DNA from: an uncultured Tateyamaria sp.
Lineage (GTDB): Bacteria; Pseudomonadota; Alphaproteobacteria; Rhodobacterales; Rhodobacteraceae
Length of the DNA: 64,000 nt
Reading direction: 5' to 3'
Assembly: GCA_947501275.1 (NCBI GenBank)
Contig: CANMVD010000001.1
Location: 310,001-374,000, forward strand
Part shown: piece by piece, positions 6,420-40,543 of the stretch
How positions within the stretch are numbered: position 1 is the first letter of the stretch
Layout of the letters: each line of letters starts with the position of its first letter
Notes under the pieces: generated by a model
The model's input: the letters and a program-made list of their open reading frames with translations, nothing else
Told to the model about the DNA's origin: nothing
Database searches by the model: none
Position numbers and translations under genes: made by a program

Positions 6420-6481
6420 GCCGCTCAAGATAGGCTCAAGGCACACCCTATGCGACCCGTTTCCTGCGCAGATTTGACCGC

Positions 6482-9518: not shown

Positions 9519-9814
9519 GCGCCTGCGAGTGTGTCCATCTTGCGGGCCAGTTTTGCATCCAACTGGCTGAGCCCGCCAACATCATGTGTCGTCAATGTCA
9601 CCTCAACGGTCTTGTAGACATTGGACCACTCGGGGTGATGATCCCACTTTTCTGCCCAAAGAGCGGCACGGGTCATCCAGCCAAAAGCGTCCGCAAAGTC
9701 ATCAAAGACAAACGTCTTGTGGATCGCATCCCGTCCGTCGACCATGCTCCAGCCTGTCGCCACAAGCGGGTCCAGCAATGGGCCGCGTGTTTCCTCACTC
9801 AATTTCTCGGTCAT
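9515..9814 (-). CDS. phhB: Pterin-4a-carbinolamine dehydratase
   Basis: A 99-residue protein of the DCoH/PCD family. The diagnostic motif [19 protein letters not shown] places the paired His59/His60 and Trp residues, and Thr-His-Asp at 76-78 supplies the third active-site His. It dehydrates 4a-hydroxytetrahydrobiopterin to recycle the cofactor of aromatic amino-acid hydroxylases, or of a related pterin pathway. Its stop is free but its product follows an unrelated GNAT-fold gene, which overlaps its ATG (ATGA). Confidence 0.93.
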
Positions 9815-10998
9815 TGTTGTTCCTCGATCTGGGCTTTTTTGAAGGGGCCATAGTCGGTCAGCACCTCGATCTCTTCCTCGATGGCTTGGCGTTCGGCCTG
9901 CAGGTAGCGATCTATTGCGTCAGCAAAACCCGGATCGCCCACCCAGTGCAAGGAGTGCGTTTGCGTCGGCAAATAGCCGCGCGCGAGTTTGTGTTCACCC
10001 TGTGCACCCGCTTCGACCCGGTCGAGGCCACGGGCAATCGCGATATCGATGGCCTGATAATAACACAGTTCAAAATGCAGACAGGGATGGTGTTCGATGC
10101 ACCCCCAATAGCGCCCATAGAGCGCGTGTCGTCCAACAAAGTTCAATGCGCCAGCCACATAGCGCCCGTCACGCTCGGCCAGAACAAGTGCCATATCATC
10201 ACGTAGCGTCTCTTGGGCAATGTCAAAAAAGCGGCGCGTCAGATAAGGAGTGCCCCACTTGCGTGCGCCTGTGTCCTGATAGAACTGCCAGAATGCCTCC
10301 CAGTGTTCGGGGCGCAGATTATCCCCCGAAAACGTATGGATTTCTCCCCCAAAGCGCTGCGCCTGTGCCCGTTCCTTGCGGATGTTCTTGCGCTTGCGAC
10401 TGGACAGCGAGGCAAGGAAATCGTCAAAGTTTCCGTAGCCGTCATTGAGCCAGTGAAACTGCTGGGTCGTGCGCGGCATAAGTCCGATCTCCTCGCCCAG
10501 ATCCCTTTCGTCTTCGGTGCAAAAGGTGATGTGCAGCGAACTGATTTTGTTTTGCGTGCCAACCTGCACCGCCCCCTGAATCAACGCAGACAGGCCAGCA
10601 TGGGCAAAGTCCGGGTGCGTCAAAAAACGCCTACCGGTCGCTGGGGTGTGCGGCACCGCAATCTGGAGCTTGGGATAGTATCGCCCTCCCGCCCGCTCGT
10701 AGGCATGCGCCCAGTTGTGATCAAAGATATACTCGCCCTGACTGTGGCTTTTCGCGTACATCGGCGCGACTGCGATTGTCTGGCCATTGATCATGGCCTG
10801 AAGGTATTGCGGTTGCCAGCCTGTCCCCGCCCCAACCGAATTGCTGTCCTCAAGCGCCTTTAGAAACCGATACGTCGTGAATGGGTCGTTTGGAGGCCCG
10901 CCATCTGCCGCTTCCGGGCAGGCGCAGCTGTCCCATGTCTCTGCGCCAATTTCGGACAGATTGGGCAGAACGCGAATTTCGATTTCCTGTTCGGACAA
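9811..10998 (-). CDS. GNAT-fold protein of the DUF482/peptidogalycan-synthesis type
   Basis: A 395-residue protein of the COG3146 type: [18 protein letters not shown] near the middle, [21 protein letters not shown] and [22 protein letters not shown] are the conserved blocks. These are FemX/GNAT-like acyltransferase folds with no established reaction. The start is TTG at 10998 (no ATG nearby), with AAGG about nine bases upstream. The gene precedes and overlaps phhB. Confidence 0.85.
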
Positions 10999-25890: not shown

Positions 25891-27468
25891 ATGGCAAAGA
25901 TCGCCTACATTTTGCTGTGTCACAAAGACCCAGAGGCTGTGATCAAGCAGGCCGAACGGTTGACGGCTGCTGGCGACTACATGGCGATTCACTTTGACGC
26001 GCGCGCCGATCCAAAGCTGTTTGCCCAGATCCGCACTGCTCTCAAAGACAATGACAATGTGACCTTTGCTCATAGGCGTATCAAATGCGGATGGGGTGAA
26101 TGGAGCCTTGTTCAGGCAACGCTTTATGCGGTCGAAAGCGCCGTCGAGGCATTTCCACGTGCAACCCATTTCTACATGCTGTCCGGTGACTGCATGGCGA
26201 TCAAATCCGCCGAATACACCCATCGCTTTCTCGATGAAAACGACGCCGACTTTATCGAGAGCTTTGACTATTTCGAAAGTGACTGGATCAAGACCGGCAT
26301 GAAGGAAGAGCGGCTGATCTATCGACACTACTTTAACGAGCGCAAGCACAAGCGACTATTTTATCACAGTTTCAACCTGCAGCGCCGCTTGGGCCTGGAA
26401 CGTGAAATCCCCGAAGACATTCAAGTCATGATCGGCAGTCAGTGGTGGTGTCTGCGCCGGCGAACCATCGAATGGGTTCTCGATTTCACCCGCAATCGGC
26501 GCGACGTCATGCGCTTTTTCCGTACGACCTGGATCCCGGATGAGACGTTCTTTCAGACCATCGTGCGCCATGTCGTGCCAGAAGACGAAATCCGCACCCG
26601 CACGCTGACATTCCTTATGTTCACAGATTACGGGATGCCGGTCACGTTCTATGATGACCATTACGACCTGCTGCTTAGCCAGGACTTTCTGTTTGCCCGC
26701 AAGATCAGCGCCGAGGCTGACGATCTCAAGCGCCGTCTGGGCCTGCTGTATGCCGCCGAAAACGTGCAATTCCAGATATCGAACGAAGGTCAGTCGCTGT
26801 TCAAGTTCCTGTCGGGACGTGGTCGCATTGGCCGGCGCTTTGCCACGCGATTCTGGGAAACGGAAAGCACGCTGGGTCGCAACCGTGAACTGCTGATCAT
26901 CATCTGCAAAAAATGGCACGTGGCCAAGCGTGTGTTGGAGCGCGTCCGCCAAGTCACAAATGTCCCCGCCATCGAATATCTGTTCAACGAAGAGCATACC
27001 CCCCTGCCCGATCTTGGCGGCATCCAGACATCGCTGAGCAAGCGAACACGTCATAGGCGTGCATTGATGCGGATGCTGTTTGACTACTACGAAACTGACC
27101 GGCTGATCGTGTGTATGGATCCGGGCGAGATTGACCTGCTGCAGGACTTTGCAGGAGATCGCTCCATCACGCGCATGCTGGAAATCCAGTGCGACTTTTC
27201 TGACGATTACCTCATTGGTCACGCCATGCGCGTTGGCCTTGCGGGTGAGCAGACTGCCCCGGAAACACTGGACCGTTTGCTGCCAACCATCCGCAATGAC
27301 ATGACGTTTGAATCCGATCGCATCCGCGATGCAGCATTCGAAAATCTGGAAAGAGTACAGGAGTCCGGTGACGTCGATGAAAACGCCAAGGCACTTTCCC
27401 GGTTTTTGACGATCCCGGAGGATCAGGCCCACGAAATCGCGTCAGCCGGTTATCTCTTTTCCGACTGA
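25891..27468 (+). CDS. GT14 (core-2/I-branching) glycosyltransferase with C-terminal extension
   Basis: A 525-residue protein. The N-terminal ~280 residues match GT14 beta-1,6-N-acetylglucosaminyl/xylosyltransferase-like enzymes: MAKIAYILLCHKDPEAV, HFDARADPKLF, GWGEWSLVQATL, FYMLSGDCMAIKSAEY, GSQWWCLRRRTIEWVL and the IPDETFFQT acidic motif. The C-terminal ~240 residues are a conserved-looking region of no known fold. It would transfer a sugar from a nucleotide donor to a glycan or protein acceptor, probably in the cytoplasm. The divergent sulfotransferase may modify the same product. Confidence 0.85.
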   Translation: MAKIAYILLCHKDPEAVIKQAERLTAAGDYMAIHFDARADPKLFAQIRTALKDNDNVTFAHRRIKCGWGEWSLVQATLYAVESAVEAFPRATHFYMLSGDCMAIKSAEYTHRFLDENDADFIESFDYFESDWIKTGMKEERLIYRHYFNERKHKRLFYHSFNLQRRLGLEREIPEDIQVMIGSQWWCLRRRTIEWVLDFTRNRRDVMRFFRTTWIPDETFFQTIVRHVVPEDEIRTRTLTFLMFTDYGMPVTFYDDHYDLLLSQDFLFARKISAEADDLKRRLGLLYAAENVQFQISNEGQSLFKFLSGRGRIGRRFATRFWETESTLGRNRELLIIICKKWHVAKRVLERVRQVTNVPAIEYLFNEEHTPLPDLGGIQTSLSKRTRHRRALMRMLFDYYETDRLIVCMDPGEIDLLQDFAGDRSITRMLEIQCDFSDDYLIGHAMRVGLAGEQTAPETLDRLLPTIRNDMTFESDRIRDAAFENLERVQESGDVDENAKALSRFLTIPEDQAHEIASAGYLFSD

Positions 27469-28716: not shown

Positions 28717-29364
28717 CTATTTGGACTTCCACGTATCAAGCCATTTGCGGAACCGTCCACGCCGCTGCTCAACAGCGTCGCCTGCGGCTTCCCAATTGTC
28801 CTGCCATTCCTCAAGTGTCGGATCGATACGCGCCCGGCGGAACCGCCGCCAACGCACCCAGATGGCGTAGAAGAACGCGGCCAGAAGGGTCAGGACAATG
28901 ATGTTGATCCACGGGATGCCTTTGGACACATCGGGTCCTTCCACCGGCTTGATGCTGATTGCATTGGGGTAGATCGACAGGAACGGAGACCGCCAGCCAT
29001 AGTGTGTGACAATTGCCCATTGCGCGTCGGCTCGTGTCGACACAACGTCCGCAGCTTCGGCCTGCAGGTTTGAGCTGTCCAGTTTGAAATAGGGTGGCCA
29101 GCCAAACCCTGTGTCCTCATTGCGATAAACGCTCACCCGGCCATTGGCCCGGGTGGTGTTGATCAAGCGTAAATCGCGGTTGCCGACATCATTGTCGCCA
29201 CTGTCAGCCTGCGCATAGAACCAGCGGGACATTCCCGAGAAGTCCTTGCGGATAATCTCGGTTCCCGTGACGCGCACGATATCCTTTTGTGGCAAGGTAT
29301 AGTGCAGGAAAGCACCAAAAAAGACCCAAAAGGCAATCAGAAGTGTCCAGCCGATGTAACGCAT
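28717..29364 (-). CDS. DUF1523-family membrane protein
   Basis: A 215-residue protein with an N-terminal membrane segment (MRYIGWTLLIAFWVFFGAFL), an extracytoplasmic domain containing QKDIVRVTGTEIIRKDF and GWRSPFLSIYPNAISIKPV, a second membrane segment (about 155-175, NIIVLTLLAAFFYAIWVRW) and a charged cytoplasmic tail. The pattern is DUF1523, known from Rhodobacterales; function unknown. It is the last gene of the twelve-gene minus-strand cluster. Confidence 0.82.
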   Translation of the reverse strand: MRYIGWTLLIAFWVFFGAFLHYTLPQKDIVRVTGTEIIRKDFSGMSRWFYAQADSGDNDVGNRDLRLINTTRANGRVSVYRNEDTGFGWPPYFKLDSSNLQAEAADVVSTRADAQWAIVTHYGWRSPFLSIYPNAISIKPVEGPDVSKGIPWINIIVLTLLAAFFYAIWVRWRRFRRARIDPTLEEWQDNWEAAGDAVEQRRGRFRKWLDTWKSK

Positions 29365-29375
29365 AAAGGTCCCTC

Positions 29376-29639
29376 TCAGGCGAAATTCACAAGGTAAATG
29401 GTTAGCCCGACAAGGGCCATGGGCACGATATAGACACCCAAGATCAATTTGCGACGCAGCGATCCATCATATTCGGTCAGCCCGGCCTCGATGAACTCAT
29501 CGCGCGGGGTGTCGATGTCGCCGGCGTCCCACTGCGCTTCCAGCTTGCCGCGTCGTTTGGCGCGCGAATAGAACGACAGGCTGAGATAGATGATACTCAA
29601 CACCACAAGGACGATAAACAGCAGTCTGATCAGACCCAT
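29376..29639 (-). CDS. Small two-helix membrane protein
   Basis: An 87-residue protein of unknown function: membrane segment at about 3-22 (LIRLLFIVLVVLSIIYLSL), a charged middle with AQWDAGDIDTPRDEFIEAGL, and a second membrane segment at about 67-86. It lies 3 bases after the 447-residue gene and 11 bases before the DUF1523 gene, so is clearly in the operon. Confidence 0.75.
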   Translation of the reverse strand: MGLIRLLFIVLVVLSIIYLSLSFYSRAKRRGKLEAQWDAGDIDTPRDEFIEAGLTEYDGSLRRKLILGVYIVPMALVGLTIYLVNFA

Positions 29640-29642
29640 TTC

Positions 29643-30986
29643 CTACCTCCTCACCGCACCCCAAGGACCCACACGATCAATGATGTCGCGACGTGCCTGT
29701 TGCGGGGTGCCCGGCTCTTCCATCGGTGCGTCGTATCCAAACAGGGCCGCGCGCGCACCCACCTTGTCTGCTTGATACTCAGCTTCGAGATATTGCGCGA
29801 CATATTCCTTCTTGGCCTCGGGCCAACTGGCATAGGCCGCATAAAAGGCTTGCTTGTGACAGATAAACAGCTGGCGCACATCTCGGGGGCTGAGTTCGGA
29901 AAGCAACATGTTCACCAGTTCCGCCTCTGGGGTGTCAGCCGCGCGCAGCGTATAGAAATAGGCTGGATGTTCGGATGAGATACGCGGCCACGTGCCCCCG
30001 TTTTCAGCCCAATTCACCAAATCACCAAGTGCATGAAACTCATCCGGCAACAAATGTGAATGACGCCGTGCCAACATCCGCATATCCCGCCGCGTTGTGC
30101 CCGTCAGGTCGATGCCAGCCTCGGTCACTGCCGAAACAAGGATAAAATCCATCTTTTGGCGCAAAACCGCAGCACCGTTGATCCCGCGAGCCCGGACAAT
30201 GGGCTCTGCCAGATCGTTAAATTCAAGAAACTTGGCGATGCGGTTGCGGTCGTTCAGGTCAAAGCTGTACTTGATCGGTACGTCTTGTGGCGCTTGCGTA
30301 GATCCGATCACCGCCGGGTGGTCCAGCATCTGAAACACGTAGAGGCCGCCAAAGTGGGCAGTCCAAAAGTTTCCTTGATCGACCTTCATCGGCTTCAAGT
30401 TCACCGGGTTGCGTGACACATCCCCGGTTTGACCGGCCAGCGTGATCATCTCTGCGATCAACACATCGTCAAACCACGCGTCCTCTTCGTTGAGAAACGT
30501 GTCGATCTTGTTTGCCAGTTTGGCCGCATTACGCACGGTACCCCGCGTCGTGTCCGCCTCAACTGTGATGGCGCGCAAATCAAAAAGACGGGCCGGGTCT
30601 GAAATGTCATAGACCGAGTTCACCAACTCACCCGCCACCGCATCCCGTGCCGTAAGCGCAAACAGCGCCGCTTCGTTCTCGGTGATGAACTGTTGCAGGA
30701 TCGGCCGCGACGTCGAGAACTTCGCATCCAGCAACGGGCATCTGCGCTGCTCCGTACTCAGCAGAATGAACTGCCGATTGACTCCGTTGTGGTTAAGGTA
30801 GAGCGGATCTTCCAGCTCATTGCCCACCTCGGGCGAAAATCCGGAGATATCGATATAGAAGTCAGTCAGCGAGGTCCGCTTACCCGTCAGATGTTCAAGC
30901 GCGCGGTTGTAGCGCTCGACCAGCGCAGGCGAGGCGACGTGAAACAGATTGCCATACATCAGGCCACGTTTGATCAGACGGATCAT
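29643..30986 (-). CDS. Conserved-looking protein of unknown function, 447 aa
   Basis: I do not recognise a domain. The 447-residue protein is soluble-looking with mixed alpha/beta composition, and includes ALEHLTGKRTSLTDFYIDIS, GNFWTAHFGGLYVFQMLDHP, ARRHSHLLPDEFHALGDLVN and AFYAAYASWPEAKKEYVAQY. No signal peptide. Its ATG overlaps the stop of the 98-residue membrane protein gene (ATGA), and it belongs to the AAA+ ATPase operon. A role as soluble partner of the ATPase or of the small membrane proteins is only a contextual guess. Confidence 0.75.
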   Translation of the reverse strand: MIRLIKRGLMYGNLFHVASPALVERYNRALEHLTGKRTSLTDFYIDISGFSPEVGNELEDPLYLNHNGVNRQFILLSTEQRRCPLLDAKFSTSRPILQQFITENEAALFALTARDAVAGELVNSVYDISDPARLFDLRAITVEADTTRGTVRNAAKLANKIDTFLNEEDAWFDDVLIAEMITLAGQTGDVSRNPVNLKPMKVDQGNFWTAHFGGLYVFQMLDHPAVIGSTQAPQDVPIKYSFDLNDRNRIAKFLEFNDLAEPIVRARGINGAAVLRQKMDFILVSAVTEAGIDLTGTTRRDMRMLARRHSHLLPDEFHALGDLVNWAENGGTWPRISSEHPAYFYTLRAADTPEAELVNMLLSELSPRDVRQLFICHKQAFYAAYASWPEAKKEYVAQYLEAEYQADKVGARAALFGYDAPMEEPGTPQQARRDIIDRVGPWGAVRR

Positions 30987-31279
30987 GTGCGCGCCCTCGC
31001 AAGTCGAAAGATAAACGGTACGGCCAAGGCAAAGAGCGGCACAGCAAAGGACCGGTAGGTGATTTGCACATTGAAACCTACGTAAGACAGATAAGAGTCA
31101 TTAAAGAGCAAAAGGGAATCCGAGATCGGGATGCCCTCAAACCCCATGGCGGTGTTGATGCCCGCGTGGAGTGCGAAGAGCAAGGCAGCCATCCCAATGA
31201 AGCCAAAGCCCCCCCACGATAAAGGAAGGATCGCGCCAATAATGAACGCCAGCACAGCGATGCATAACAGCAAAATCAT
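30983..31279 (-). CDS. Small membrane protein, 98 aa
   Basis: Three hydrophobic segments: about 1-18 (MILLLCIAVLAFIIGAIL), 23-42 (GGFGFIGMAALLFALHAG) and 72-92 (YRSFAVPLFALAVPFIF). Both ends overlap neighbours by ATGA, indicating translational coupling. No family recognised. Confidence 0.75.
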   Translation of the reverse strand: MILLLCIAVLAFIIGAILPLSWGGFGFIGMAALLFALHAGINTAMGFEGIPISDSLLLFNDSYLSYVGFNVQITYRSFAVPLFALAVPFIFRLARART

Positions 31280-31644
31280 CGATCACCCTCCGAGGCCAGG
31301 TCCCTGCCCCGCCAGCGCTCAACACGTTGCGCCATGTTAAACCACGACAGCAGCAACATCGGCGCCCAGGAGACAGCAAACAAAAGCGAGTTGCGCAGCG
31401 CAATCTCTGCCACCAACAGCGGACCGCCCATCTGCAACGCGCGCTGATATGCGCCCACATCCAATGCGACAAGCACCAGCGCCGAAAATGCGACAAGAAA
31501 CAGAACGGCACAGATAACGGCAATTGCGACGGCCATATGCGAGCGCGTCATGTCAGACACGAGCAGTCGCGGCACCACCCACCCCAAGGCACCAAGGACC
31601 AGCAGTGGCAGGCCCGTGTTCCATATGGTCGGCGTTTCGATCAC
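31276..31644 (-). CDS. Small membrane protein, 122 aa
   Basis: Three or four hydrophobic segments (about 10-28, 38-66 and 85-105) with a charged C terminus (QRVERWRGRDLASEGDR). The start is GTG at 31644, overlapping the TGA of the AAA+ ATPase gene as GTGA; the end overlaps the 98-residue gene. It therefore lies directly behind the motor gene and could be its membrane anchor, which is inference from order only. Confidence 0.75.
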   Translation of the reverse strand: MIETPTIWNTGLPLLVLGALGWVVPRLLVSDMTRSHMAVAIAVICAVLFLVAFSALVLVALDVGAYQRALQMGGPLLVAEIALRNSLLFAVSWAPMLLLSWFNMAQRVERWRGRDLASEGDR

Positions 31645-33575
31645 CCTTTGCTCTCCAAATACCGCTTTTTCGCTTCTTCCTGCCGACCGAAGTCGCGCAC
31701 CATCGCGTCAATCGCGACCTCGTCGGACTTGTCTGCATAGCGGAATTCAGAATCCGCGTAGCGGTTGATCTCCTGCACCACCATGTCGACCGTGATCGGC
31801 ACACGCAGTTCGGAAATCATCGACTTCTTCTCGTCATAGCCTTTGAACAGGAACAGCTCAGGGTTCTCCATCCACTCATCCGGCAACTCAAAGTCCATCG
31901 CGCGGACCTTGACCGCATCGGTGATGTTCTTGATTGCCCGACCGGTAAAACGTTCGTCGGCCTCCTGAATGCCCTTCAGATAGGTGCCCAGTTTGGCAAT
32001 CGTGTCCAGCTCACCAACTGACGAATGCACACGGTCAAACACCTCCATCAGCCCGGCCTCGTGCGGGCGGGAATGACCCTCAAATGACGCTGCAACTGCC
32101 TTCTTGATTTCTTGAGCCGAAAACACCTCATGCGCGCCCACGGGTATATCGTGGTTCTTGCCCATCAGCAGGTACAGGATGTCGATGTAATCCTCGCGCG
32201 TCTGCGGCCCGTCGACCAGAAACCGCGCCCCGGCCCTTTGGCGCAAGGCGTCATCTACGTTCTCGGGGTAGTTCGAGAACATGCCAAAAGTGCAATTGCC
32301 CCGCACCACCGTGTTGGCGCCAGCAAAGCTCTCCATCAAAACCGCGGTGATTTCCAACTGCCCTGCAGAAGACTGACGATCCCCGCGCTTGCCCGCCAAT
32401 TGGTCGATATCGTCAATGGTCCCAAACCCGATGGCATTCTGGTCCAGCACATTGTTGATAAACGCCTTGGCGTTCTGGCCCGACTTACCCTGATAACTGT
32501 CGATATTGTCGGTGCTCAGGTTCTGGTATCGGAACGGATAACCCGCCACCTGACAGTAATCGTTGATGAGGCCTGCCATCATCTGGATCAGCGTCGTCTT
32601 GCCCGTTCCAGGCTTGCCATCCCCCATAAAAGTAAAGATGAACCCGCCAAGTTCTGCAAACGGGTTCAGACGCCGATCAAAGTCATAGGCCATCAGCATC
32701 TTGGCCAGTTTCATCGCCTGATATTTGGCGATGTGGTTGCCCACAACCTCGTTCGGCTTTTTGAATGTCATGGTGAGGGTCTGCGTCTTGGTCTTGGACG
32801 CAGGGGTAAAGCCTTGAATGGTGAAATCGTCGGCCTCCACATGCCAACTGACATTCTGAAAGGCCGCCAGTCGGGGGGCGGTCTGGGCGCGCAACGATAC
32901 TTTTTCCATCAACGCTTCGGCATAGGCCGTGATGGTCGCAACCAAATGCGTGTCATCCGGGGCGTGGGCCGCGACGTCCTGATCCAACTCCCACAGGGCG
33001 CCATGCAGGGCAGTTTGGCCATTGTCGGTCAACATCTCCTCGACTTCGCCAATCTCCACCGTAATTTCGGTTTGATGCGCGGACAGCAGGTAAGCGGTCG
33101 CATTGGCAAAAACGTACAGCGTGATCAACGCCTCCGCCGCCAACAATTCGGCAAACTCAGTCTTGCGGGCTGCGGGCAAGGCGCCTTCCAGATTGGTGCG
33201 TTTCAAATCACCAAGGCCAGAAACGGCTGCGTAATTTTCTGCCACGGCCAGCGCGATAGAGATCGCGCGACGCAAAGCATTGAGCACTGTCGCCTGCACC
33301 GGCGACATCAGCGCATCATCGTTATCCGCTCCCTCGATGGTGGCCATAACCTGCACGGCCCCCGCTGGCGTGGTACGGCGGGTCACCAATCCGGGCGTCG
33401 TCGAACGGAATCGACGGCGCGTACCAACACCAGACGAACGCTCCGCTTGAGGAGCATCCTTGCCCTTGCCGATACGGGGGGCGTGATCAAATCCCTGCAA
33501 CATGGCCAAAGCCATCGGATAGTGGGCCGTAATCTCGGCCTCACGCAGTTCCATCTGGTCGGACGTCTGGCTCAT
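31641..33575 (-). CDS. AAA+ ATPase with long helical N-terminal region
   Basis: A 644-residue cytoplasmic ATPase. Residues 1-90 are low-complexity and basic, about 90-310 mostly helical, and the AAA+ module starts near 310: Walker A GDGKPGTGKTT (318-328), Walker B GFGTIDDID (383-391), a sensor-1-like FGMFSN (430-435), and DDALRQRAGARF (441-452), matching the arginine-finger segment of classic AAA proteins (DPALxRxGRF). The last ~190 residues are helical. It looks like a protein-remodelling motor rather than a sigma-54 activator: GAFTGA is not present. Centre of the cluster. Confidence 0.88.
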   Translation of the reverse strand: MSQTSDQMELREAEITAHYPMALAMLQGFDHAPRIGKGKDAPQAERSSGVGTRRRFRSTTPGLVTRRTTPAGAVQVMATIEGADNDDALMSPVQATVLNALRRAISIALAVAENYAAVSGLGDLKRTNLEGALPAARKTEFAELLAAEALITLYVFANATAYLLSAHQTEITVEIGEVEEMLTDNGQTALHGALWELDQDVAAHAPDDTHLVATITAYAEALMEKVSLRAQTAPRLAAFQNVSWHVEADDFTIQGFTPASKTKTQTLTMTFKKPNEVVGNHIAKYQAMKLAKMLMAYDFDRRLNPFAELGGFIFTFMGDGKPGTGKTTLIQMMAGLINDYCQVAGYPFRYQNLSTDNIDSYQGKSGQNAKAFINNVLDQNAIGFGTIDDIDQLAGKRGDRQSSAGQLEITAVLMESFAGANTVVRGNCTFGMFSNYPENVDDALRQRAGARFLVDGPQTREDYIDILYLLMGKNHDIPVGAHEVFSAQEIKKAVAASFEGHSRPHEAGLMEVFDRVHSSVGELDTIAKLGTYLKGIQEADERFTGRAIKNITDAVKVRAMDFELPDEWMENPELFLFKGYDEKKSMISELRVPITVDMVVQEINRYADSEFRYADKSDEVAIDAMVRDFGRQEEAKKRYLESKG

Positions 33576-33641
33576 CTCAAATCCCTTGCTTCATCTTGCA
33601 AAATAAACTTCCCCCGGAGGGCCGGTCTGCCACCCAGCCGT

Positions 33642-33896
33642 TCACTTGTTTTGTCCCCGTCTGGGCGAGGTTAACCATCCACGATAGACCACATAGGTTA
33701 TTCCCAACCAGACCGGCCAGCCAAACATCACGATCACACGTAGTGACCGGCCATAGCGATCCTCAGGGTCGGCCATCGCGGGAAACAGCACCCAAATGGC
33801 GGCCAGCACCACCCAGACGCTCACAAAGCCATACAGGTTCTGCTTGTCCCGCAGCAGGTAGGCCAGAAACGTCTTGGGTTTTTTGCGCGACGCCAT
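33642..33896 (-). CDS. Small two-helix membrane protein, 84 aa
   Basis: Basic N terminus (MASRKKPKTFLAYLLRDKQN), two membrane segments at about 22-40 and 52-70 (VIVMFGWPVWLGITYVVYRG), and a basic tail. It lies 66 bases before the AAA+ gene and 3 bases after the 371-residue gene. No family recognised. Confidence 0.7.
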   Translation of the reverse strand: MASRKKPKTFLAYLLRDKQNLYGFVSVWVVLAAIWVLFPAMADPEDRYGRSLRVIVMFGWPVWLGITYVVYRGWLTSPRRGQNK

Positions 33897-33899
33897 GGG

Positions 33900-35015
33900 T
33901 CAGTACCTCAGCACCCGCCCCGCAGGGCTGACCACGAATTTGCGGACGGACCCAAAGCCGGGCGGGTTCATCTCTTCCAGCGCCTGATATGGGCGTTGCG
34001 GCAAAACGATCGATCGTTCCATCCGGGTCGTACCCGTCTCCGCCCCGCGGCCGGCAAATGGGTCCAGTGCAAACACCTCGCGCTCCACGGTCGAAAACCA
34101 GCCCTGGCGTTCTTCGATCACACGCTCAGAGTGCAAATCCTCCTCGGTCCATACCAGCGCCCAATCCTGCCCCTCAGGGGCGCGGGCGGCCTCAAGAACG
34201 CGCAAAATCGGGCCAGTCTGCTTGGTGAACGCGGAAGAATACATCGGACCCAAGTGAAACCGACGCAGGCGCTTGGGGTGCAGGTCGTCAAAATCCTCGT
34301 CAAAGCCCTTGGCGATAGTGACCAGTTTCAACCCACCAAGTGACTGGGCCATCAAATGCGCCTGCACCTCGGGCCAGCGACGCTGATCCTTGGGCAGCGC
34401 GATTTTGCCCGTGTCTTCGACCTCCATCATGTAGATGATCGGCAAATTCACCTGACTATCATACATCGCCCAATGCACACGGAAGGTGCGCCGCTGTTCA
34501 TTGATGTTTCCCGTCCAGACAATCTGTGGATCGTTGCGGGGCCAGAACAACTCGCCCAACTGCAACTCTTCGTAATAGTTCCTTTGGGACAGCGCGAATT
34601 GCAGCTTGGTTGGCACTTCGCGGTCGCCCACGATCACTTCGACCATCTGCTGTTTCAATTCATCATCTGTGGGCATACCCGCCAGATGGCGTTCGGCCTG
34701 CTGCGCGTCAGACGCCATCGCCAGCAACTCGTCCGCCGCCGGAAAGCCACTTTCGTGCGCGTCTATCGACAGCGACCCAAAGAAACGGCCCGTATCCCGC
34801 CCGACCAGCAGATACTTCTGGCTGAGCGCGCGAAAGGTAAACGTCATCTCGGCAATGTACCGGGTGAGGATCTTGACCTCATCCCGGTTCAGATCGCCCT
34901 CGGCCTCCATAACGGCCGCCACCCGTCCCAAATGCGAGATGATCGTCTCGAATTTCCGGAAATAACGGCGCGAGGCATAAAGGTCAGTCAGGCCAATGGG
35001 TTCGGGTTTGGTCAT
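33900..35015 (-). CDS. Protein of unknown function, 371 aa
   Basis: A soluble protein of 371 residues with no motif I recognise. The N-terminal ~120 residues look helical (TDLYASRRYFRKFETIISHL, ILTRYIAEMTFTFRALSQKY); the rest is alpha/beta, with FRVHWAMYDSQVNLPIIYMM and FHLGPMYSSAFTKQTGPI. Its ATG overlaps the stop of the 86-residue gene by one base (TAATG). Co-directional with the coiled-coil and ATPase genes, so probably part of one complex or pathway. Confidence 0.75.
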   Translation of the reverse strand: MTKPEPIGLTDLYASRRYFRKFETIISHLGRVAAVMEAEGDLNRDEVKILTRYIAEMTFTFRALSQKYLLVGRDTGRFFGSLSIDAHESGFPAADELLAMASDAQQAERHLAGMPTDDELKQQMVEVIVGDREVPTKLQFALSQRNYYEELQLGELFWPRNDPQIVWTGNINEQRRTFRVHWAMYDSQVNLPIIYMMEVEDTGKIALPKDQRRWPEVQAHLMAQSLGGLKLVTIAKGFDEDFDDLHPKRLRRFHLGPMYSSAFTKQTGPILRVLEAARAPEGQDWALVWTEEDLHSERVIEERQGWFSTVEREVFALDPFAGRGAETGTTRMERSIVLPQRPYQALEEMNPPGFGSVRKFVVSPAGRVLRY

Positions 35016-35275
35016 TAACTTGAGAACATAGCGATGAACGAGGCGTGCACGCCAGAGAATGACGCACTATCAGCGAGCTTTTGACTGCGCAAGAAACGCG
35101 CGTGACATGCACCGACAAAAACCATCATGCAAAGGGATATACCAAGTATCCACAGCAATCCATTTGCAAGACCGATCACGAAGCCGACAAAGAGTGTAAA
35201 CTCTGCCCCGATCCAGACCAGATCGCCGTTGCGCGCGGCCCAAACCGATTTCTTTTTTACCTTAGGAACCGGCAT
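35015..35275 (-). CDS. Small two-helix membrane protein, 86 aa
   Basis: Lys-rich N terminus (MPVPKVKKKS) followed by two closely spaced hydrophobic segments spanning about residues 20-58 (WIGAEFTLFVGFVIGLANG, LLWILGISLCMMVFVGA). It shares one base with the start of the 371-residue gene. No family recognised. Confidence 0.7.
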   Translation of the reverse strand: MPVPKVKKKSVWAARNGDLVWIGAEFTLFVGFVIGLANGLLWILGISLCMMVFVGACHARFLRSQKLADSASFSGVHASFIAMFSS

Positions 35276-35331
35276 TGCAATTTGATCTCCCAGAGTTGTG
35301 TTTTTGGGCCTTCACGACAAGCGCATCTTCA

Positions 35332-35481
35332 TCACCCGCCCTTGCGCGCCTTGGTCAGCAGATAAAGGCCAGCAATCCCGCAAAAGAACCCTACTCCGTT
35401 CACCCATGCGGGCGCACCAAATGCGATGGTGGCCAACAGGCTCACGATGGAAACCGCGATCGCGGCAAGGCCGAGTTTCAT
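35332..35481 (-). CDS. Tiny membrane protein, 49 aa
   Basis: Found by reading the gap between neighbouring genes: ATG at 35479-35481 to TGA at 35332-35334. The product starts MKLGLAAIAVSIVSLLATIA and continues through FGAPAWVNGVGFFCGIAGLY to a basic end (KARKGG), so two short membrane helices joined by a Pro/Trp turn. A GGAT stretch lies eight bases upstream of the start. Strand, spacing and hydrophobicity fit the series of small membrane proteins in this operon. Confidence 0.6.
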   Translation of the reverse strand: MKLGLAAIAVSIVSLLATIAFGAPAWVNGVGFFCGIAGLYLLTKARKGG

Positions 35482-35505
35482 ATCATTGATCCAATCCTGC
35501 TTGTT

Positions 35506-35709
35506 TCACCGCAATCCACCAGAAAGGAGTGCTCCGACAATTTTAACCGCTGCTTTTCCCGTGTGACTGCAGGACGACCGCACAAATGACGAACAAAAGC
35601 CGTTGCTCGTGTCACAACCAAACCAATGGGTGACGCATCCGATTGGAATAAGAACGACAATCGCGAACAGGCAAAGAAAAAACCACCGCTTCTTACCCCC
35701 CGTACGCAT
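35506..35709 (-). CDS. Small Cys-rich single-span membrane protein, 67-69 aa
   Basis: Start ATG at 35709 (or 35715), overlapping the 3' end of the coiled-coil gene in another frame; stop TGA at 35506. The product begins MRTGGKKRWFFLCLFAIVVL and has a single hydrophobic segment ending in IPIGC. Four more cysteines follow in WFGCDTSNGFCSSFVRSSC and beyond (five Cys plus one in the helix). The IPIGC end of the helix resembles a lipobox only loosely. The 24-base spacing to the next small gene suggests translation in series. Confidence 0.55.
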   Translation of the reverse strand: MRTGGKKRWFFLCLFAIVVLIPIGCVTHWFGCDTSNGFCSSFVRSSCSHTGKAAVKIVGALLSGGLR

Positions 35710-36769
35710 TCGCATCATGCTTCTCGACAATCTCCGAGAAGCGGCGGGCAAAGCGCTCATCCGCCTTGGCTTTCTGCTCCAGCACATCACGGGCAAAAAC
35801 CATCTGATCCTCGTGGGCCTCCAACATGTCGGCCATCCGCGCATTTGTCGCCGCACCGATACCTGCCATGGCGGTTTGCGCCTCTTGGTCCGTCTTCACG
35901 CCGATCTCGTTGATGCGGTGAGCGACGTCCTGCTGTTGGGCAGTTTTCAACGATTTGGTCAGGGCGTCATAGAGCACAACGCGCTGCTTGGTGTCCGTTT
36001 GCAACTTGTTGATCAGCACCATCTGCGTCGCCGCTTGGTTCTGTAGTGAATCCACCCAGGTTTTGCCCTTTTCGATATAGCGTTCGAGGGTCTGGGACTT
36101 GGCCAATTTGACCTGTTCGTCCTGTACCATGGCATTGTACTTGGAGTTCAGATCGGCCAGCTCTGTTTCGAGCACGGTGCGCGCAGCGGCATCAGTTTCA
36201 GACGCGATCTTGTTCTCAAGCGTTATGATGGCCGGATCCATGGCCTTGATCTCCGCTTGAAGGGCGGACAGTTCCTGCACCGTGAACTCACGTTCATCCA
36301 GCGTCTCTGTCAGATTGCCTTCGACCTTGGTTTTTTGATCTTCGAGCACGTTCAACTGACCTTCCAGCAGCTTAACAATGACATCGGATTTCGAAATCAG
36401 GTCTTGCAGCTTGTCGTCGATGGTCGCTGTCCGGATACGCTCCTGACGCATCGATTCCGATTTGGCCTTGGCAAAGATACCAACAAAGCTTTCCCACCCG
36501 GTTTTGGAACGGATCTCTTCAAAGTCTTTTGAAAACGCTGTGGTCACGTCATCAAGGCCCATGATCAGTTCAGCAATGTTTGCGTTCATGGTCTCGGTAT
36601 GGGCGTGGACGTCGTCCAGAGTGGCGTTTTCGATATCCATCGAAATGTCCGTGCCCTCTTTCATCTTGGCGCGCGCAGTCTCGATCCGACTGGTCAACTC
36701 GGCAATCTTGGATTGGGCCTCGGCCACCTGCGACTGAGATTCTGCCACCTGAGATGCGAAATCCGCCAT
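35693..36769 (-). CDS. Long coiled-coil protein, first gene of the AAA+ operon
   Basis: A 358-residue, highly charged, almost wholly helical protein with Gln/Ala/Glu heptads from the N terminus (ADFASQVAESQSQVAEAQSK) and long coiled coils at about 120-260 (VEGNLTETLDEREFTVQELS, LEDQKTKV). No signal peptide or membrane segment. It superficially resembles TelA/PspA-type cytoplasmic scaffolds but no family is certain. Start ATG 36769 with GGGAG seven bases upstream; a TTG at 36772 is less likely. It heads the twelve-gene cluster divergent from tetR. Confidence 0.75.
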   Translation of the reverse strand: MADFASQVAESQSQVAEAQSKIAELTSRIETARAKMKEGTDISMDIENATLDDVHAHTETMNANIAELIMGLDDVTTAFSKDFEEIRSKTGWESFVGIFAKAKSESMRQERIRTATIDDKLQDLISKSDVIVKLLEGQLNVLEDQKTKVEGNLTETLDEREFTVQELSALQAEIKAMDPAIITLENKIASETDAAARTVLETELADLNSKYNAMVQDEQVKLAKSQTLERYIEKGKTWVDSLQNQAATQMVLINKLQTDTKQRVVLYDALTKSLKTAQQQDVAHRINEIGVKTDQEAQTAMAGIGAATNARMADMLEAHEDQMVFARDVLEQKAKADERFARRFSEIVEKHDANAYGG

Positions 36770-36927
36770 CAAATTCTCCCTCGTTTCAAAGTGTTGCTTT
36801 ACATATAGGTGATGTTACGGGGGTTTACATCCGCTGATCACCGGAATTCCGGCACAGTGTTGCAAAACCTCCCCCCGAATGAAAGCGCAGCAATGGGGTT
36901 TTCGCCGTGCACACTGCGGGTTATGTC

Positions 36928-36942
36928 TTGAACTTGGTTCAT
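36928..36942. promoter_or_regulatory. TetR operator candidate O4, in front of tetR
   Basis: TTGAACTTGGTTCAT: a TGAAC-NNN-GTTCA palindrome of the same type as the three operators before pspA. It ends 12 bases before the chosen tetR start codon, overlapping the expected leader or start of transcription, so it fits autorepression. Confidence 0.65.
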
Positions 36943-36954
36943 ACGGGGAAAATT

Positions 36955-37554
36955 ATGAGCACCAAGGCTCAAGACCGGCGCAATGCGTTGCACATGACGT
37001 TGATCGACATCGCAGAGACACAGATCGAACAAGAGGGCATTGCCGCGATCAAGGCCCGCACGCTGGCACAAGAAGCCGGATGCTCGGTCGGGGCCATATA
37101 CAATGTGTTCGGTGATCTCGAAGATATCATCATTGCCGTGAACGGGCGGACATTCGAAAAACTTGGGCGTCACGTTGCGCTGGCCCTTGCTGGAAAAGAG
37201 GCGCTCGGCCCGACCGACCGACTGATCGCAATGTCATTTGCGTATCTTGATTATGCTGTCGAACATCCCCGGCTGTGGCGCGCATTGTTTGATCTGCGCA
37301 TGTCGACCGACATGGAGGTTCCGCAATGGTACCTTTCAGAACTGGCGCAACTGTTCGCCTTTATCGACGGTCCGGTCAAAGAATGCTTTCCTGACCTGGA
37401 CACCGAAGAGGTCTCTTTGATGACCCGCGCTCTGTTCTCGTCGATTCATGGAATCGTCCTGTTGGGGCTGGAAAACCGAATCTCCGGCGTACCGCGAGAC
37501 CAGATCCGCAACATGATTGCGATGCTGCTACGGTCCTCCACCGGTCAAAAGTGA
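36955..37554 (+). CDS. TetR/AcrR-family repressor
   Basis: A 199-residue regulator: N-terminal DNA-binding domain with helix-turn-helix LAQEAGCSVGAIYNVFGDLEDI (about 38-59) and a C-terminal ligand/dimer domain of WHG type (FAYLDYAVEHPRLWRALFDL). ATG at 36955 with GGGGA upstream is preferred to an earlier ATG at 36907, which would put the operator palindrome inside the coding region. It probably represses its own gene, pspA-yiaAB and perhaps the divergent operon. The ligand is unknown. Confidence 0.9.
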   Translation: MSTKAQDRRNALHMTLIDIAETQIEQEGIAAIKARTLAQEAGCSVGAIYNVFGDLEDIIIAVNGRTFEKLGRHVALALAGKEALGPTDRLIAMSFAYLDYAVEHPRLWRALFDLRMSTDMEVPQWYLSELAQLFAFIDGPVKECFPDLDTEEVSLMTRALFSSIHGIVLLGLENRISGVPRDQIRNMIAMLLRSSTGQK

Positions 37555-37591
37555 TTTGAAACCATTGTAATCACAGTGGAAACACAGTGTT

Positions 37592-37606
37592 TTGAACGTC
37601 GTTCAA
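37592..37606. promoter_or_regulatory. TetR operator candidate O1, pspA promoter
   Basis: TTGAACGTCGTTCAA, a perfect 7+1+7 palindrome. It lies 23 bases upstream of O2 measured start to start, about two helical turns, so dimers could bind on the same face of DNA. Confidence 0.75.
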
Positions 37607-37614
37607 CTTTTTTC

Positions 37615-37643
37615 TTGAACGACGTTCAAACTTGTTCTATTTT
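37615..37643 (+). promoter_or_regulatory. pspA promoter with operator O2
   Basis: Operator O2 is TTGAACGACGTTCAA (37615-37629), a perfect 7+1+7 palindrome. Its left half TTGAAC doubles as a -35 box; 17 bases later TATTTT (37638-37643) is a fair -10 box. Transcription should start near 37650, so O2 covers the polymerase contact region. Confidence 0.7.
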
Positions 37644-37648
37644 ATTTC

Positions 37649-37663
37649 GTGAACAACGTTCAT
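37649..37663. promoter_or_regulatory. TetR operator candidate O3, at the pspA transcription start
   Basis: GTGAACAACGTTCAT: TGAAC-AAC-GTTCA core, a slightly weaker copy of O1/O2. It covers the predicted transcription start and ends 14 bases before the pspA ATG, adjacent to the AAAGG ribosome site (37666-37669). Confidence 0.65.
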
Positions 37664-37677
37664 GAAAGGTAAAACAG

Positions 37678-38349
37678 ATGCTGAATACATTTAGAACTCT
37701 CTTTGCAGGTGCGAATGCCCGCGCCGAAGACCGCCTGCGTGATGTCTATGCGATCGAGCTGATCGACCAGAAAATTCGTGAAACCGAAGCACAGGTTCAA
37801 GCCGCCAAGTCGACGCTTGCCAGCCTGATCCAGCGCAGCCGGTCCGAACAGAAGCTGCTTGATATGCTGCGCACACGTATCGCGTCACTGACTGACCGGG
37901 CCCGTGCCGCCATGGCCGAAGGGCAGGACAACATGGTGAACGAGGCCGCCAGCGCCATCGCAGAGATGGAAAACGAAAGCGCTGTCCGTCAGGCCACCAT
38001 CGACCGTCTGGAGATTCAGGCCACACGTTTGCGTGCGTCCGTTGAAAAGGGCCACCGCCGTGTCATTGATCTTAAACAGGGCGCTTTGCAAGCCAAAGCC
38101 ATCCGCCGCGAACAGACGATCCAGTCCGGGTTGCACACTACGTTGCAAGGCATCTCGTCGGCCGATGAGGCTCAGGCCCTGATCGACCGTGTGACCGGCA
38201 AGGATGATCCACTGGAGCAGGCCGAAATCCTGTCCGAAATCAATGCAGGTCTTGATCATACCGGGCTTGAAGACCGCATGGCCGAAGCCGGGTTCGGCAG
38301 TGCCACAAAAGTCACAGCCCGCGACGTACTGGCCCGACTTAAACCCTGA
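37678..38349 (+). CDS. PspA/IM30-family membrane-associated protein
   Basis: A 223-residue protein of the length of PspA, with an N-terminal helix suited to membrane binding (MLNTFRTLFAGANARAEDRL), then long coiled coils (IDQKIRETEAQVQAAKSTLA and SLTDRARAAMAEGQDNMVNE) and a helical C terminus. PspA/Vipp1 proteins are bacterial members of the ESCRT-III fold that polymerise on stressed membranes. Located directly behind three TetR operators and before yiaAB. Classical PspF/PspBC partners are absent; the AAA+ gene of the divergent operon is a possible substitute. Confidence 0.85.
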   Translation: MLNTFRTLFAGANARAEDRLRDVYAIELIDQKIRETEAQVQAAKSTLASLIQRSRSEQKLLDMLRTRIASLTDRARAAMAEGQDNMVNEAASAIAEMENESAVRQATIDRLEIQATRLRASVEKGHRRVIDLKQGALQAKAIRREQTIQSGLHTTLQGISSADEAQALIDRVTGKDDPLEQAEILSEINAGLDHTGLEDRMAEAGFGSATKVTARDVLARLKP

Positions 38350-38415
38350 TCGTGCCACAAACAGACCTCACAGTTTCGTTAACTCAAACCCAATTCAATC
38401 CATCGGAGACTTACC

Positions 38416-38703
38416 ATGTACAATGACAAACCAGACAATTCGCTGATCATGATGCTCAATGGCGCAGGCGTCGTAGCCGCCTACGTGCTGCTCGGCATTT
38501 CCCTCTGGATCAGCACCGATGTGCCGCTTTCAACCAAAGGGTTCTGGGGCATCGGCATTCTGATGTTGACCCTGAGCCTGGTGAATTTTGTCAAATACCG
38601 CTTTGACAACCAGCAGCGCATCGACCGTATCAACCGTATCGAAGAAGCCAAACACGAAAAGCTTCTTGAGGACTATGTCGGCGAAGTCAAAGACGCCGCG
38701 TAA
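38416..38703 (+). CDS. YiaA/YiaB-family inner-membrane protein
   Basis: A 95-residue protein with two membrane helices (about 10-30 MLNGAGVVAAYVLLGISLWI and 38-60 TKGFWGIGILMLTLSLVNFV) matching the YiaAB domain, followed by a charged helical tail (NRIEEAKHEKLLEDYVGEV). YiaAB proteins recur next to PspA-like genes. It lies 66 bases after pspA and before a terminator, so the pair is one transcript. Confidence 0.85.
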   Translation: MYNDKPDNSLIMMLNGAGVVAAYVLLGISLWISTDVPLSTKGFWGIGILMLTLSLVNFVKYRFDNQQRIDRINRIEEAKHEKLLEDYVGEVKDAA

Positions 38704-38771: not shown

Positions 38772-38802
38772 ATCTCACTGTCAATTTCCGATGGAGTGAA
38801 TG

Positions 38803-39354
38803 ATGCAGAATGCACCTGTTCGAAATCCCCAATTTCTACTGCACAAGGCCGCCTGGCCGTGCATTGCCATAATCTGGCTCGCCTATCTCATTTTCAATGA
38901 GCCCTCTTTTGGTCATGCGCCCTATTACGCGCGTCCATTGCACCCTGTGTTGTCGGGCCTGTTTTCAGTCTGGGCCGGGTATGCTCTTGTCTTCATGGTC
39001 ATACTCATTGCGCACAACATGGCAATGCTACGCGAAAAGCTGGCGTTCACATGGCCAAAGGCTGCAAGTTCTTTTGGTGCAATGCTCGTCACGCCCGTTT
39101 TCTTTTGGGGCCTTCTGCCATTGGTTCCGGCGATGCTGCTTTGGGCACCAGCAATGGGTGCGCCGCTTGATATCCAACTCGTCGTGGTCGCGCTGCCCAT
39201 CTCGCTCGTGATCTGGGCCTTATGGTATGGGGTTTTCAGCTTGATCGGCCCCGTGGCCAAGCCATTTTCGGTAAAACGGCTTCCCGCGTGCCTGCTGATT
39301 TTTGGGGGCGTTGCCAGCGGCGTAGCACTGAGCCTGAACGAACCCTACTTCTGA
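38803..39354 (+). CDS. Membrane protein of unknown function, 183 aa
   Basis: About five hydrophobic segments, including HKAAWPCIAIIWLAYLIF, FSVWAGYALVFMVILIAH, LVTPVFFWGLLPLVPAMLLW and LVVVALPISLVIWALWYGVF. No family recognised. Two adjacent ATG codons at 38800 and 38803; the second is six bases from GGAG and is chosen. It lies beyond the terminator of pspA-yiaAB, so it is probably transcribed on its own, and may or may not belong to that locus. Confidence 0.72.
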   Translation: MQNAPVRNPQFLLHKAAWPCIAIIWLAYLIFNEPSFGHAPYYARPLHPVLSGLFSVWAGYALVFMVILIAHNMAMLREKLAFTWPKAASSFGAMLVTPVFFWGLLPLVPAMLLWAPAMGAPLDIQLVVVALPISLVIWALWYGVFSLIGPVAKPFSVKRLPACLLIFGGVASGVALSLNEPYF

Positions 39355-39418: not shown

Positions 39419-40543
39419 ATGTCAGATTGGTCACCAGACAAAACTCAAGTCAAAAGCTGGAACGAGTGGGATACTTTGCGCCACGTCATCGTGGGACGCG
39501 CAGATGATTGCCACATCCCGCCCGAAGAACCTGCTCTGGATGCGAAAGTCCCCGAAGACAGCGACATGCGTGGCCAGTGGGGTCGCCGCCCGCAAGAGAC
39601 AATCGACCGCGCCAATGAACTCCTCGACACGTTTGCCAACCAGCTGAAATCGCGCGGCATACGCGTGGATCGTCCCACGTCCATAGATCATTCAGTGCCT
39701 GCAACGACGCCAGACTTTCATACTGACAGCCAGTTTGGTTGCATGCCACCCCGCGATGTCCTGCTGACTGTCGGCCACGAGATCCTTGAGGCGACGATGT
39801 CATACCGCTGCCGCTGGTTCGAGTACCTGAACTACCGCCCCCTCATGCAGCAATATTGGGACGAGGATCCAAACTTCCGACATGAGGCAGCGCCCAAACC
39901 GCGCCTGACGGATGCGGACTACCATCCCGATTACCTGTCTGAAAAGATTGGCGATGCCAAACGACTGGAATGGGCGGCCAAAAAGTTCTTTGTCACCACC
40001 GAAGAAGAACCACTGTTTGATGCCGCTGACGTGCTGCGTTTTGGCAAGGATCTGGTGGTACAGCACGGCTTCACCACAAACCTCAAGGGCATCGAATGGC
40101 TGCGCCGCCACTTCCCCGATCATCGGGTTCACACCGTGAACTTCCCAGGTGATCCCTACCCGATCCACATTGATGCGACGTTCACGCCGCTGCGTCCGGG
40201 CCTGATCCTCAACAACCCGCAGCGCCGTCTGCCCGACGACCAGCGCGGCATGTTCGAAGCCAATGGATGGGAGATCGTCGATGCTGCCCAGCCAGCCCAC
40301 AACACACCACCACCGCTGTGCTATTCCTCGACATGGCTGTCTATGAACGTGCTGGTGCTGGATCCCAAAACCGTCTGCGTCGAGAAGTCAGAGGTCTATC
40401 AGGCCGAGCAGATGGACAAGCTGGGGATGGAAGTTGTCGAGGTCGAGTTACGCGATGCCTACGCCTTTGGCGGCGGGCTGCACTGCTGCACGGCGGACGT
40501 CTACCGCGATGGGGACTGCGAAGACTACTTCCCCAAACAGTGA
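39419..40543 (+). CDS. Glycine-amidinotransferase-like enzyme (AGAT/StrB family)
   Basis: A 374-residue amidinotransferase of the pentein fold. The triad is visible: Asp202 in LFDAADVLRFGKDL, His250 in YPIHIDATFTPLRPG, and nucleophile Cys356 in GGGLHCCTADVYRDG. These match AGAT, which moves an amidino group from arginine to glycine (guanidinoacetate plus ornithine), and the streptomycin-pathway StrB enzymes. The acceptor here is unknown; there is no biosynthetic cluster around it. Start ATG 39419 with AAGGGAG. Confidence 0.88.
   Translation: MSDWSPDKTQVKSWNEWDTLRHVIVGRADDCHIPPEEPALDAKVPEDSDMRGQWGRRPQETIDRANELLDTFANQLKSRGIRVDRPTSIDHSVPATTPDFHTDSQFGCMPPRDVLLTVGHEILEATMSYRCRWFEYLNYRPLMQQYWDEDPNFRHEAAPKPRLTDADYHPDYLSEKIGDAKRLEWAAKKFFVTTEEEPLFDAADVLRFGKDLVVQHGFTTNLKGIEWLRRHFPDHRVHTVNFPGDPYPIHIDATFTPLRPGLILNNPQRRLPDDQRGMFEANGWEIVDAAQPAHNTPPPLCYSSTWLSMNVLVLDPKTVCVEKSEVYQAEQMDKLGMEVVEVELRDAYAFGGGLHCCTADVYRDGDCEDYFPKQ

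Follow-up and report, generated by a model that had tools for sequence, protein, structure and literature searches.

Do the two groups of genes that lie back to back at positions 28717–38703 of a 64,000-nucleotide stretch of DNA from an uncultured Tateyamaria sp. (assembly GCA_947501275.1, contig CANMVD010000001.1; the whole stretch is hereafter called the window) constitute one membrane-remodelling system or two? The first group is a minus-strand run of twelve genes, from 36769 down to 28717, which encode a coiled-coil protein (CC), seven small membrane proteins, an AAA+ ATPase, two soluble proteins (u371 and a DUF6638 protein) and a DUF1523 membrane protein. The second, which runs the opposite way from 36955, consists of tetR, pspA and a yiaAB-like gene. 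An earlier note on this DNA had read all of these genes as a single membrane-remodelling system under TetR control, whose AAA+ enzyme might act on PspA or the coiled-coil protein in the fashion of Vps4 acting on ESCRT-III. Comparison with related genomes points instead to two apparently independent units in the region, a PspA cassette and an AAA+/DUF6638 operon, and the locus illustrates how adjacency in a single genome can mislead.

Genomic distribution of the operon and the PspA cassette

The order sample consists of 149 genomes, all labelled as the window's family, the order being inferred as Rhodobacterales. DUF6638 is found in 89 of them, the AAA+ protein in 90 (a count that includes one weak match, in G117 at 1.9e-4, which is probably unrelated) and PspA_IM30 in 49 (including one genome below the cut-off). 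The operon and pspA are both present in 40 genomes and are adjacent in one of these, the window's own, co-occurrence and adjacency having been counted by comparing coordinates by hand. The next nearest distances are about 22 kb (G043) and about 32 kb (G083). The PspA count of this sample was made with the Pfam model and is free of the gap for distant PspA types that affects the locus searches below, in which the window proteins served as queries.

The same separation is seen at the operon loci. These were taken from 60 of the 88 DUF6638-positive genomes other than the window's own, and not one of the 60 has a match to tetR, pspA or yiaAB. Among the named loci, i.e., the best 80 of 585 matches, two have the cassette, L217 from the window's genus and L196 from Stappia sediminis. 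In a second family (297 genomes, inferred to be Rhizobiaceae), pspA and yiaAB were found at none of the 20 loci taken, and the single TetR-like match is weak (16 bits). Distant PspA types can escape such searches, and some of a set of 45 PspA loci (1.5 kb per side) do hold a PspA that the window's PspA does not detect; within this set, L249 (Stappia) and L250 (the window's genus) are the only loci where PspA has operon genes next to it. L091, L168, L177, L203, L209 and L323 are among several surveyed loci that are truncated at the end of a contig, and L090, from G123, is a broken operon copy that was left broken. The operon occurs regularly without pspA and tetR nearby, a pattern that the earlier note itself had named as refuting a joint system, and the data do not support PspA as a regular part of it.

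The cassette, in turn, is found without the operon. Twenty of the 48 other PspA places in the order sample were fetched, and tetR, pspA and yiaAB are contiguous in all 20, with the operon in none. The tetR gene is co-directional with pspA in 18 of these loci and opposed to it in the other two, as well as in Stappia. A lone DUF1523 paralogue was also seen about 1 kb from another cassette (L239, positions 6415–6990), with an unrelated gene between the two.

The window's genus gives an indication of how the two units became neighbours. CC is found in 19 of 20 genomes of the genus and this pspA in 8, the two being about 0.9 kb apart in all 8. In G451 and G439, which belong to the genus and lack the cassette, and in an order relative (L041), an ADI-like gene adjoins CC; in the window, G447 and G444, the cassette and a gene termed s184 sit between CC and the ADI-like gene. 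This makes it likely, if not proved, that the cassette was inserted as a module beside the operon. The ADI-like gene was not seen in the fetched stretch of nine other tetR-less and five of seven other tetR-bearing genus loci. Where it is seen, in four genus relatives, it is 91–97% identical to the window's gene (39419–40543). The s184 gene (38800–39354) separates yiaAB from the ADI-like gene; its product, a membrane protein of some five helices, is 34–37% identical in the two relatives where it is seen.

Some observations do favour the single unit proposed in the earlier note. Besides the back-to-back placement in all eight genus members with this pspA, a second placement exists in Stappia sediminis, where a diverged cassette (about 30% identity) lies on the operon's other side, after DUF1523. 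The two units also co-occur more often than chance would give: the operon is present in 40 of the 49 pspA genomes and 49 of the 100 others in the order sample (Fisher p 1.6e-4, kinship ignored), and PspA is present somewhere in 11 of 12 other named genomes with the operon. In Stappia's family, PspA is found in 45 of 87 genomes. The placement beside the operon in two lineages suggests a weak functional pull, as does this co-occurrence, the window being a selected case. The DNA sites upstream of the genes are considered next.

DNA sites upstream of the two units

The cassette comprises tetR (36955–37554, plus strand; TetR_N and TetR_C_33 above the Pfam cut-offs), pspA (37678–38349, plus strand; PspA_IM30 at 1.3e-14, 54.8 bits against a cut-off of 33.9), which is the sole PspA_IM30 match in the window's genome, and the gene of a small membrane protein (38416–38703, plus strand), which scores 23.4 bits against the YiaAB cut-off of 26.6 and therefore owes its name to synteny. 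The palindrome TGAACNNNGTTCA is a candidate TetR operator. It occurs exactly four times in the 64-kb window, always in the cassette, namely once just upstream of tetR (36929–36941, plus strand) and three times upstream of pspA (at 37593, 37616 and 37650, spanning 37593–37662, plus strand). The three sites before pspA are spaced by 23 and 34 bp, much as in many other cassettes.

Each of the 20 other cassette loci contains two to four exact copies of the palindrome, which is also present in all seven further tetR-bearing loci of the genus, compared with none of the 11 tetR-less ones. In 138 operon loci without the cassette it was found only three times. Such a distribution is what a TetR operator and an autonomous regulon would be expected to show, the palindrome being the probable binding site of TetR and the latter the presumed repressor of the cassette.

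A different site precedes the operon. The repeat ATGTAA-N7-TTACAT, a putative promoter element, lies upstream of CC (36812–36830, minus strand) with one mismatch in the window, for which the chance expectation is 0.04 occurrences in 64 kb. It is visible in 19 aligned genomes of the genus, with or without tetR, and is followed in most of them by a -10-like CCTATAT. Within two mismatches, 69 of 135 upstream regions contain the repeat, for the most part 60–80 bp before the start, as compared with 1% of shuffled regions (the null is a single-base shuffle, and the two sets that make up the 135 overlap in genomes). It was not seen (three or more mismatches) in the distant loci tested, those of two Halomonas, Billgrantia, Stappia, Roseibium, Aestuariispira, Denitrobaculum, rhizobia and Vibrio, and therefore looks like a lineage feature; a Caulobacterales metagenome-assembled genome (L157) has it at two mismatches. 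Since the operon has this conserved repeat of its own, and the nearest TetR-type site lies about 100 bp further upstream, it most likely answers to a regulator other than TetR.

TetR control of the whole locus, as proposed in the earlier note, is thus not supported by the sites, which partition between cassette and operon. We consider the single unit, with PspA as the substrate of the AAA+ enzyme, very improbable in view of this partition, the adjacency in one of 40 genomes, the operon-free cassettes and the Pfam scan, which gave no MIT-domain or PspA-family match on the operon proteins scanned. The surprising link to PspA largely falls away. The tetR-pspA-yiaAB genes would rather form a free-standing cassette, presumably TetR-repressed, that has come secondarily to lie beside the operon.

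The conserved core and a putative remodelling mechanism

The operon has a soluble core of four proteins: CC (358 aa, the first gene, 35693–36769), u371 (33900–35015), the AAA+ ATPase (644 aa, 31641–33575; PF00004 at 6.7e-12) and the DUF6638 protein (447 aa, 29643–30986; PF20343 at 1.9e-228, 759 bits against a cut-off of 27), all on the minus strand. The core is found in Rhodobacterales, Stappia/Roseibium, Aestuariispira, Sinorhizobium/Rhizobium, Halomonas and Vibrio. CC, u371, AAA+, DUF6638, the small protein s87 and DUF1523 are each present in 59 or 60 of the 60 order loci; in the 80 named loci, CC is found in 77, u371 in 78, AAA+ in 80 and DUF6638 in 77. In the second family, 19 of the 20 loci have all four core genes together with DUF2333, the twentieth being truncated where its contig ends. 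Of the 297 genomes, 190 match a CC profile, some of them weakly. The operon (DUF6638 in 89 of 149 genomes) or CC is therefore common in two alphaproteobacterial families. Outside of these it is patchy, because only 6 of the 289 genomes in a thin class-wide draw have DUF6638; four of these are from the window's family and one has a weak match (G395, 6.9e-4), at whose fetched locus (L139) no operon gene was found.

A protein search of plasmids places the operon on replicons of Sinorhizobium, Shinella, Rhizobium and Vibrio. Thymidine kinase in S. meliloti Ak57 is followed by CC, u371 and AAA+, after which come an endonuclease-domain gene with an insertion sequence, DUF6638 and DUF2333. Its presence in this strain brings the operon within reach of standard rhizobial genetics. 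A ChvI-bound fragment is reported for the S. meliloti tag SMc02733 (PMC3687685), to which no weight is given here, as the tag is only presumed to belong to the operon. In two Vibrio megaplasmids CC, u371, AAA+ and DUF6638 are followed by mfd. Lateral transfer to Halomonas and Billgrantia is likely, since CC in the two records compared is 73–74% identical to that of the window. The megaplasmids, this identity and the patchy occurrence in the order and in the class-wide draw would suit a laterally moving, defence-type module. The PADLOC matches, however, are weak (AAA+ to TRIP13 at 1.2e-6 and IetA at 3.8e-4; CC to LmuB at 2.1e-5 and to a restriction enzyme at 0.0043) and of the sort that shared ATPase and coiled-coil regions give, and in two annotated rhizobial loci the operon lies between choline-transport and housekeeping genes. 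A defence role is accordingly the least credible explanation, to which we give hardly any weight.

The ATPase has a classic AAA domain with Walker A GDGKPGTGKTTL, a pore-loop-like YQGKS with its aromatic residue, Walker B TIDDID, sensor-1 N435 and the arginines R445 and R447, the roles of the pore loop, sensor 1 and arginine fingers being those that we presume for such motifs. The elements GDGxPGTGKTxLIQM (Walker A), YQGKS, TxDDxD (Walker B), the sensor-1 Asn and the two Arg are kept across groups. Apart from two positions in Walker A (K321 and T328) and the hydrophobic ones in Walker B, the motif residues are invariant in seven sequences (Vibrio, Sinorhizobium, Rhizobium, Aestuariispira, Stappia, Halomonas and the window). 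That the Walker A, YQG and sensor-1 residues do not vary suggests an ATPase of the threading type. No Pfam domain is recognised in the N-terminal 250 residues, and a PDB sequence search with four family profiles gave one notable match, an i-AAA protease for the ATPase (E 0.0019).

The most likely client of such an enzyme is CC. Within the order it has the highest mean column identity of the core (82%, with 78% for AAA+ and 67 and 65% for the other two); it is 72–85% identical to 28 order relatives, 44% to Aestuariispira, 42% to S. meliloti and 35% to Vibrio. In its AlphaFold2 (AF2) model (pLDDT 77.5, pTM 0.67), further helices flank a long helical hairpin; for this model the best Foldseek match has E 1.8e-3 at TM 0.24 and a second structure search reaches Z 12.8. 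No ESCRT-III or PspA chain is among the 50 structure matches listed, and against the PspA profile hhalign gives a probability of 6% (P 0.006). A CC relative on R. leguminosarum pSK03 (L289, positions 9794–10867) lies beside DUF2333, and AAA+, u371 and DUF6638 were not found within the 20 kb read; it is the sole such homologue that was found. This protein keeps 41 of 102 conserved columns overall, none of 13 at residues 269–293 and none of three in the C-terminal tail. Because both stretches are lost where AAA+, u371 and DUF6638 are missing, they are candidate partner contacts.

The u371 protein has no Pfam family match. Its AF2 model (pLDDT 90.3, pTM 0.89) consists of an N-terminal helical bundle and a beta-beta-alpha-alpha-beta-beta domain, the order of elements fitting the two-strand/two-helix/two-strand unit of the tunnelling fold (T-fold). 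T-folds serve pterin and purine enzymes. A different role for the ATPase may therefore be considered, namely that of a chaperone which assembles or activates an enzyme complex of u371 and DUF6638, in the manner of the CbbX/CbbQ activases, with CC as a scaffold rather than a client. The T-fold-like domain is in line with such a role, as are the positions of the u371 and DUF6638 genes, which flank the AAA+ gene where all are found, and the thymidine kinase upstream of CC in two annotated rhizobial replicons. The fold matches, however, are weak (the best row covers 42 residues at Z 5.6, urate oxidase has Z 4.7 and dihydroneopterin aldolase about 4.2), no active site is recognised, and the terminal and small membrane proteins are left unexplained. 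We regard the activase role as unlikely but worth keeping in view.

No hydrophobic helix is present in the core proteins of the window, Sinorhizobium or Vibrio. After the core there usually comes a membrane protein, which belongs to either of two unrelated families: DUF1523, as in the window (28717–29364, minus strand; helices at residues 3–21 and 152–170; PF07509 at 1e-66, 224 bits against a cut-off of 23), or, in the second family of genomes, DUF2333 in its place. No homology between the two is seen with hhalign, and we infer that they represent a swapped membrane anchor at the end of the operon.

On the basis of these comparisons we tentatively prefer, at somewhat less than an even chance, an ATP-driven remodeller that acts on CC as its client, with DUF1523 or DUF2333 tethering it to the inner membrane. 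The AAA+ protein would form a ring and grip CC via the pore loops, and the ring would pull apart or turn over a CC assembly at the inner membrane. The u371 and DUF6638 proteins would act as adaptors or cofactors of the ATPase, DUF1523 or DUF2333 would serve as the anchor, and the function would presumably lie in the cell envelope. This retains part of the earlier proposal, as the ATPase motifs, together with a conserved coiled-coil protein and a membrane protein, do fit membrane remodelling; CC is the better candidate for the client. What began as a one-locus idea now leads to predictions that concern two regulons, one client candidate and two candidate contact stretches.

A number of points weigh against this proposal. 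The interactions, assembly and activity of the operon proteins are all putative, and the Asp at the usual Glu position of Walker B might make for weak ATP hydrolysis. In comparisons of distant groups, AAA+ (41–54% identity) surpasses CC (35–44%) in conservation, although a client need not be strongly conserved. The CC model is moderately confident, with fold matches such as any long helical bundle may give, and the argument for the contact stretches comes from a single protein. One locus (L149) has the AAA+ gene only, and another (L181) is without CC. As to the separation of the two units, 66 of the 135 upstream regions are without the promoter repeat at two mismatches, and the TetR-type site at 36929 may have some effect on CC transcription, since it is within the shared intergenic region. 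The adjacency in two lineages and the co-occurrence may also leave room for a PspA link.

The remaining genes of the operon are the small ones. All 15 genes of the two groups are open at, or very close to, the coordinates given in the earlier note, whose gene families also hold (with YiaAB under its cut-off). The intergenic gaps of the twelve-gene run are between -26 and +66 bp, with 4-bp overlaps at three successive junctions (AAA+/s122/s98/DUF6638). The seven small proteins, all encoded on the minus strand, are s70 (35506–35718, its start overlapping the CC stop), s49 (35332–35481), s86 (35015–35275), s84 (33642–33896, two predicted helices), s122 (31276–31644), s98 (30983–31279) and s87 (29376–29639). 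Hydropathy gives at least one hydrophobic helix for six of them and one was judged by eye for s70, in agreement with their description as membrane proteins. Only s87 is widely conserved (59 of 60 order loci, 70 of 80 named loci), the others differing between lineages or being untraceable. With tblastn, s122 is found in 5 of 60 order relatives and s49, s84, s86 and s98 in none of the 60 (s70 was not searched), s98 being present in L217 of the window's genus. Five named loci leave almost no space for small genes: Aestuariispira insulae has a minimal five-gene operon with no small genes, and compact forms occur in Stappia and Roseibium. Further along the window, the gene at 25891–27468 encodes a Core-2/I-branching glycosyltransferase domain fused to DUF5928.

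Comparison with known systems

Three of the operon proteins belong to uncharacterised families, DUF6638, DUF1523 and DUF2333. No paper on DUF6638 was found in the literature searched, a joint DUF6638/DUF1523/DUF2333 operon did not come up, and DUF2333 appears, in the parts of the literature available to us, at a locus of a type VI secretion system. The operon is thus widespread, yet no function was found attached to it in the literature searched. AAA+ remodellers with dedicated partners are already known, and no categorical novelty is claimed.

The phage shock protein (PSP) systems resemble the locus in that PspA is next door in the window's genus, and other bacterial pspA genes are reported near AAA+ genes in the accessible portion of a PSP survey (PMC11237479), which describes such links of its own. 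This lends something to the single PspA unit discussed above. Neither YiaA nor TetR is in the main text of two PSP surveys, as far as that text was accessible. The operon differs from the PSP systems in that its AAA+ protein has a single AAA domain and in being pspA-free at nearly all of the loci examined.

TelA (PF05816) is a helical protein of similar length to CC, with a weak likeness in motifs, and CC could be a divergent TelA-type protein, in which case the operon would be a TelA-like stress module that concerns the envelope or toxic compounds. Motifs W-E-x-x-x-G near residue 92 and V-L-Y/W in the C-terminal half can be discerned by eye, and hhalign gives P 0.0015–0.0033, compared with 0.08–0.36 for controls with one side reversed. 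The hhalign probability, however, is 10–17%, one control with both sides reversed reaches P 0.012, and PspA does nearly as well as TelA. PF05816 is not among the five Pfam matches of the window's CC at E up to 5, from a scan of 29 CC members whose listing covers 25 of 51 families; the TelA model has its sole match in the genome (E up to 0.001) in another gene, a separate bona fide TelA. A TelA-type identity of CC is accordingly quite improbable.

The comparison with Vps4 and ESCRT-III, finally, concerns the mechanism itself. The operon shares with it an AAA domain of the classic type with pore-loop-like residues and, encoded alongside, a protein with a long helical hairpin. It is not thereby shown to belong to ESCRT-III/Vps4: the Pfam scan of the AAA+ protein (E up to 1) gave AAA-type and ABC matches only and no MIT domain, and CC matches no ESCRT-III Pfam family. 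The operon moreover adds u371 and DUF6638 to the core and has a regular genetic link to a membrane protein. A bolder version of the preferred mechanism, which we consider decidedly unlikely though not negligible, would have CC, with no relation to PspA, form a filament or coat associated with the membrane, and the AAA+ protein serve as the motor dedicated to its disassembly, with u371 and DUF6638 as adaptors, DUF1523 or DUF2333 as exchangeable anchor and a PspA cassette recruited on occasion. The operon would then encode a machine that resembles ESCRT-III/Vps4 and has arisen independently of it.

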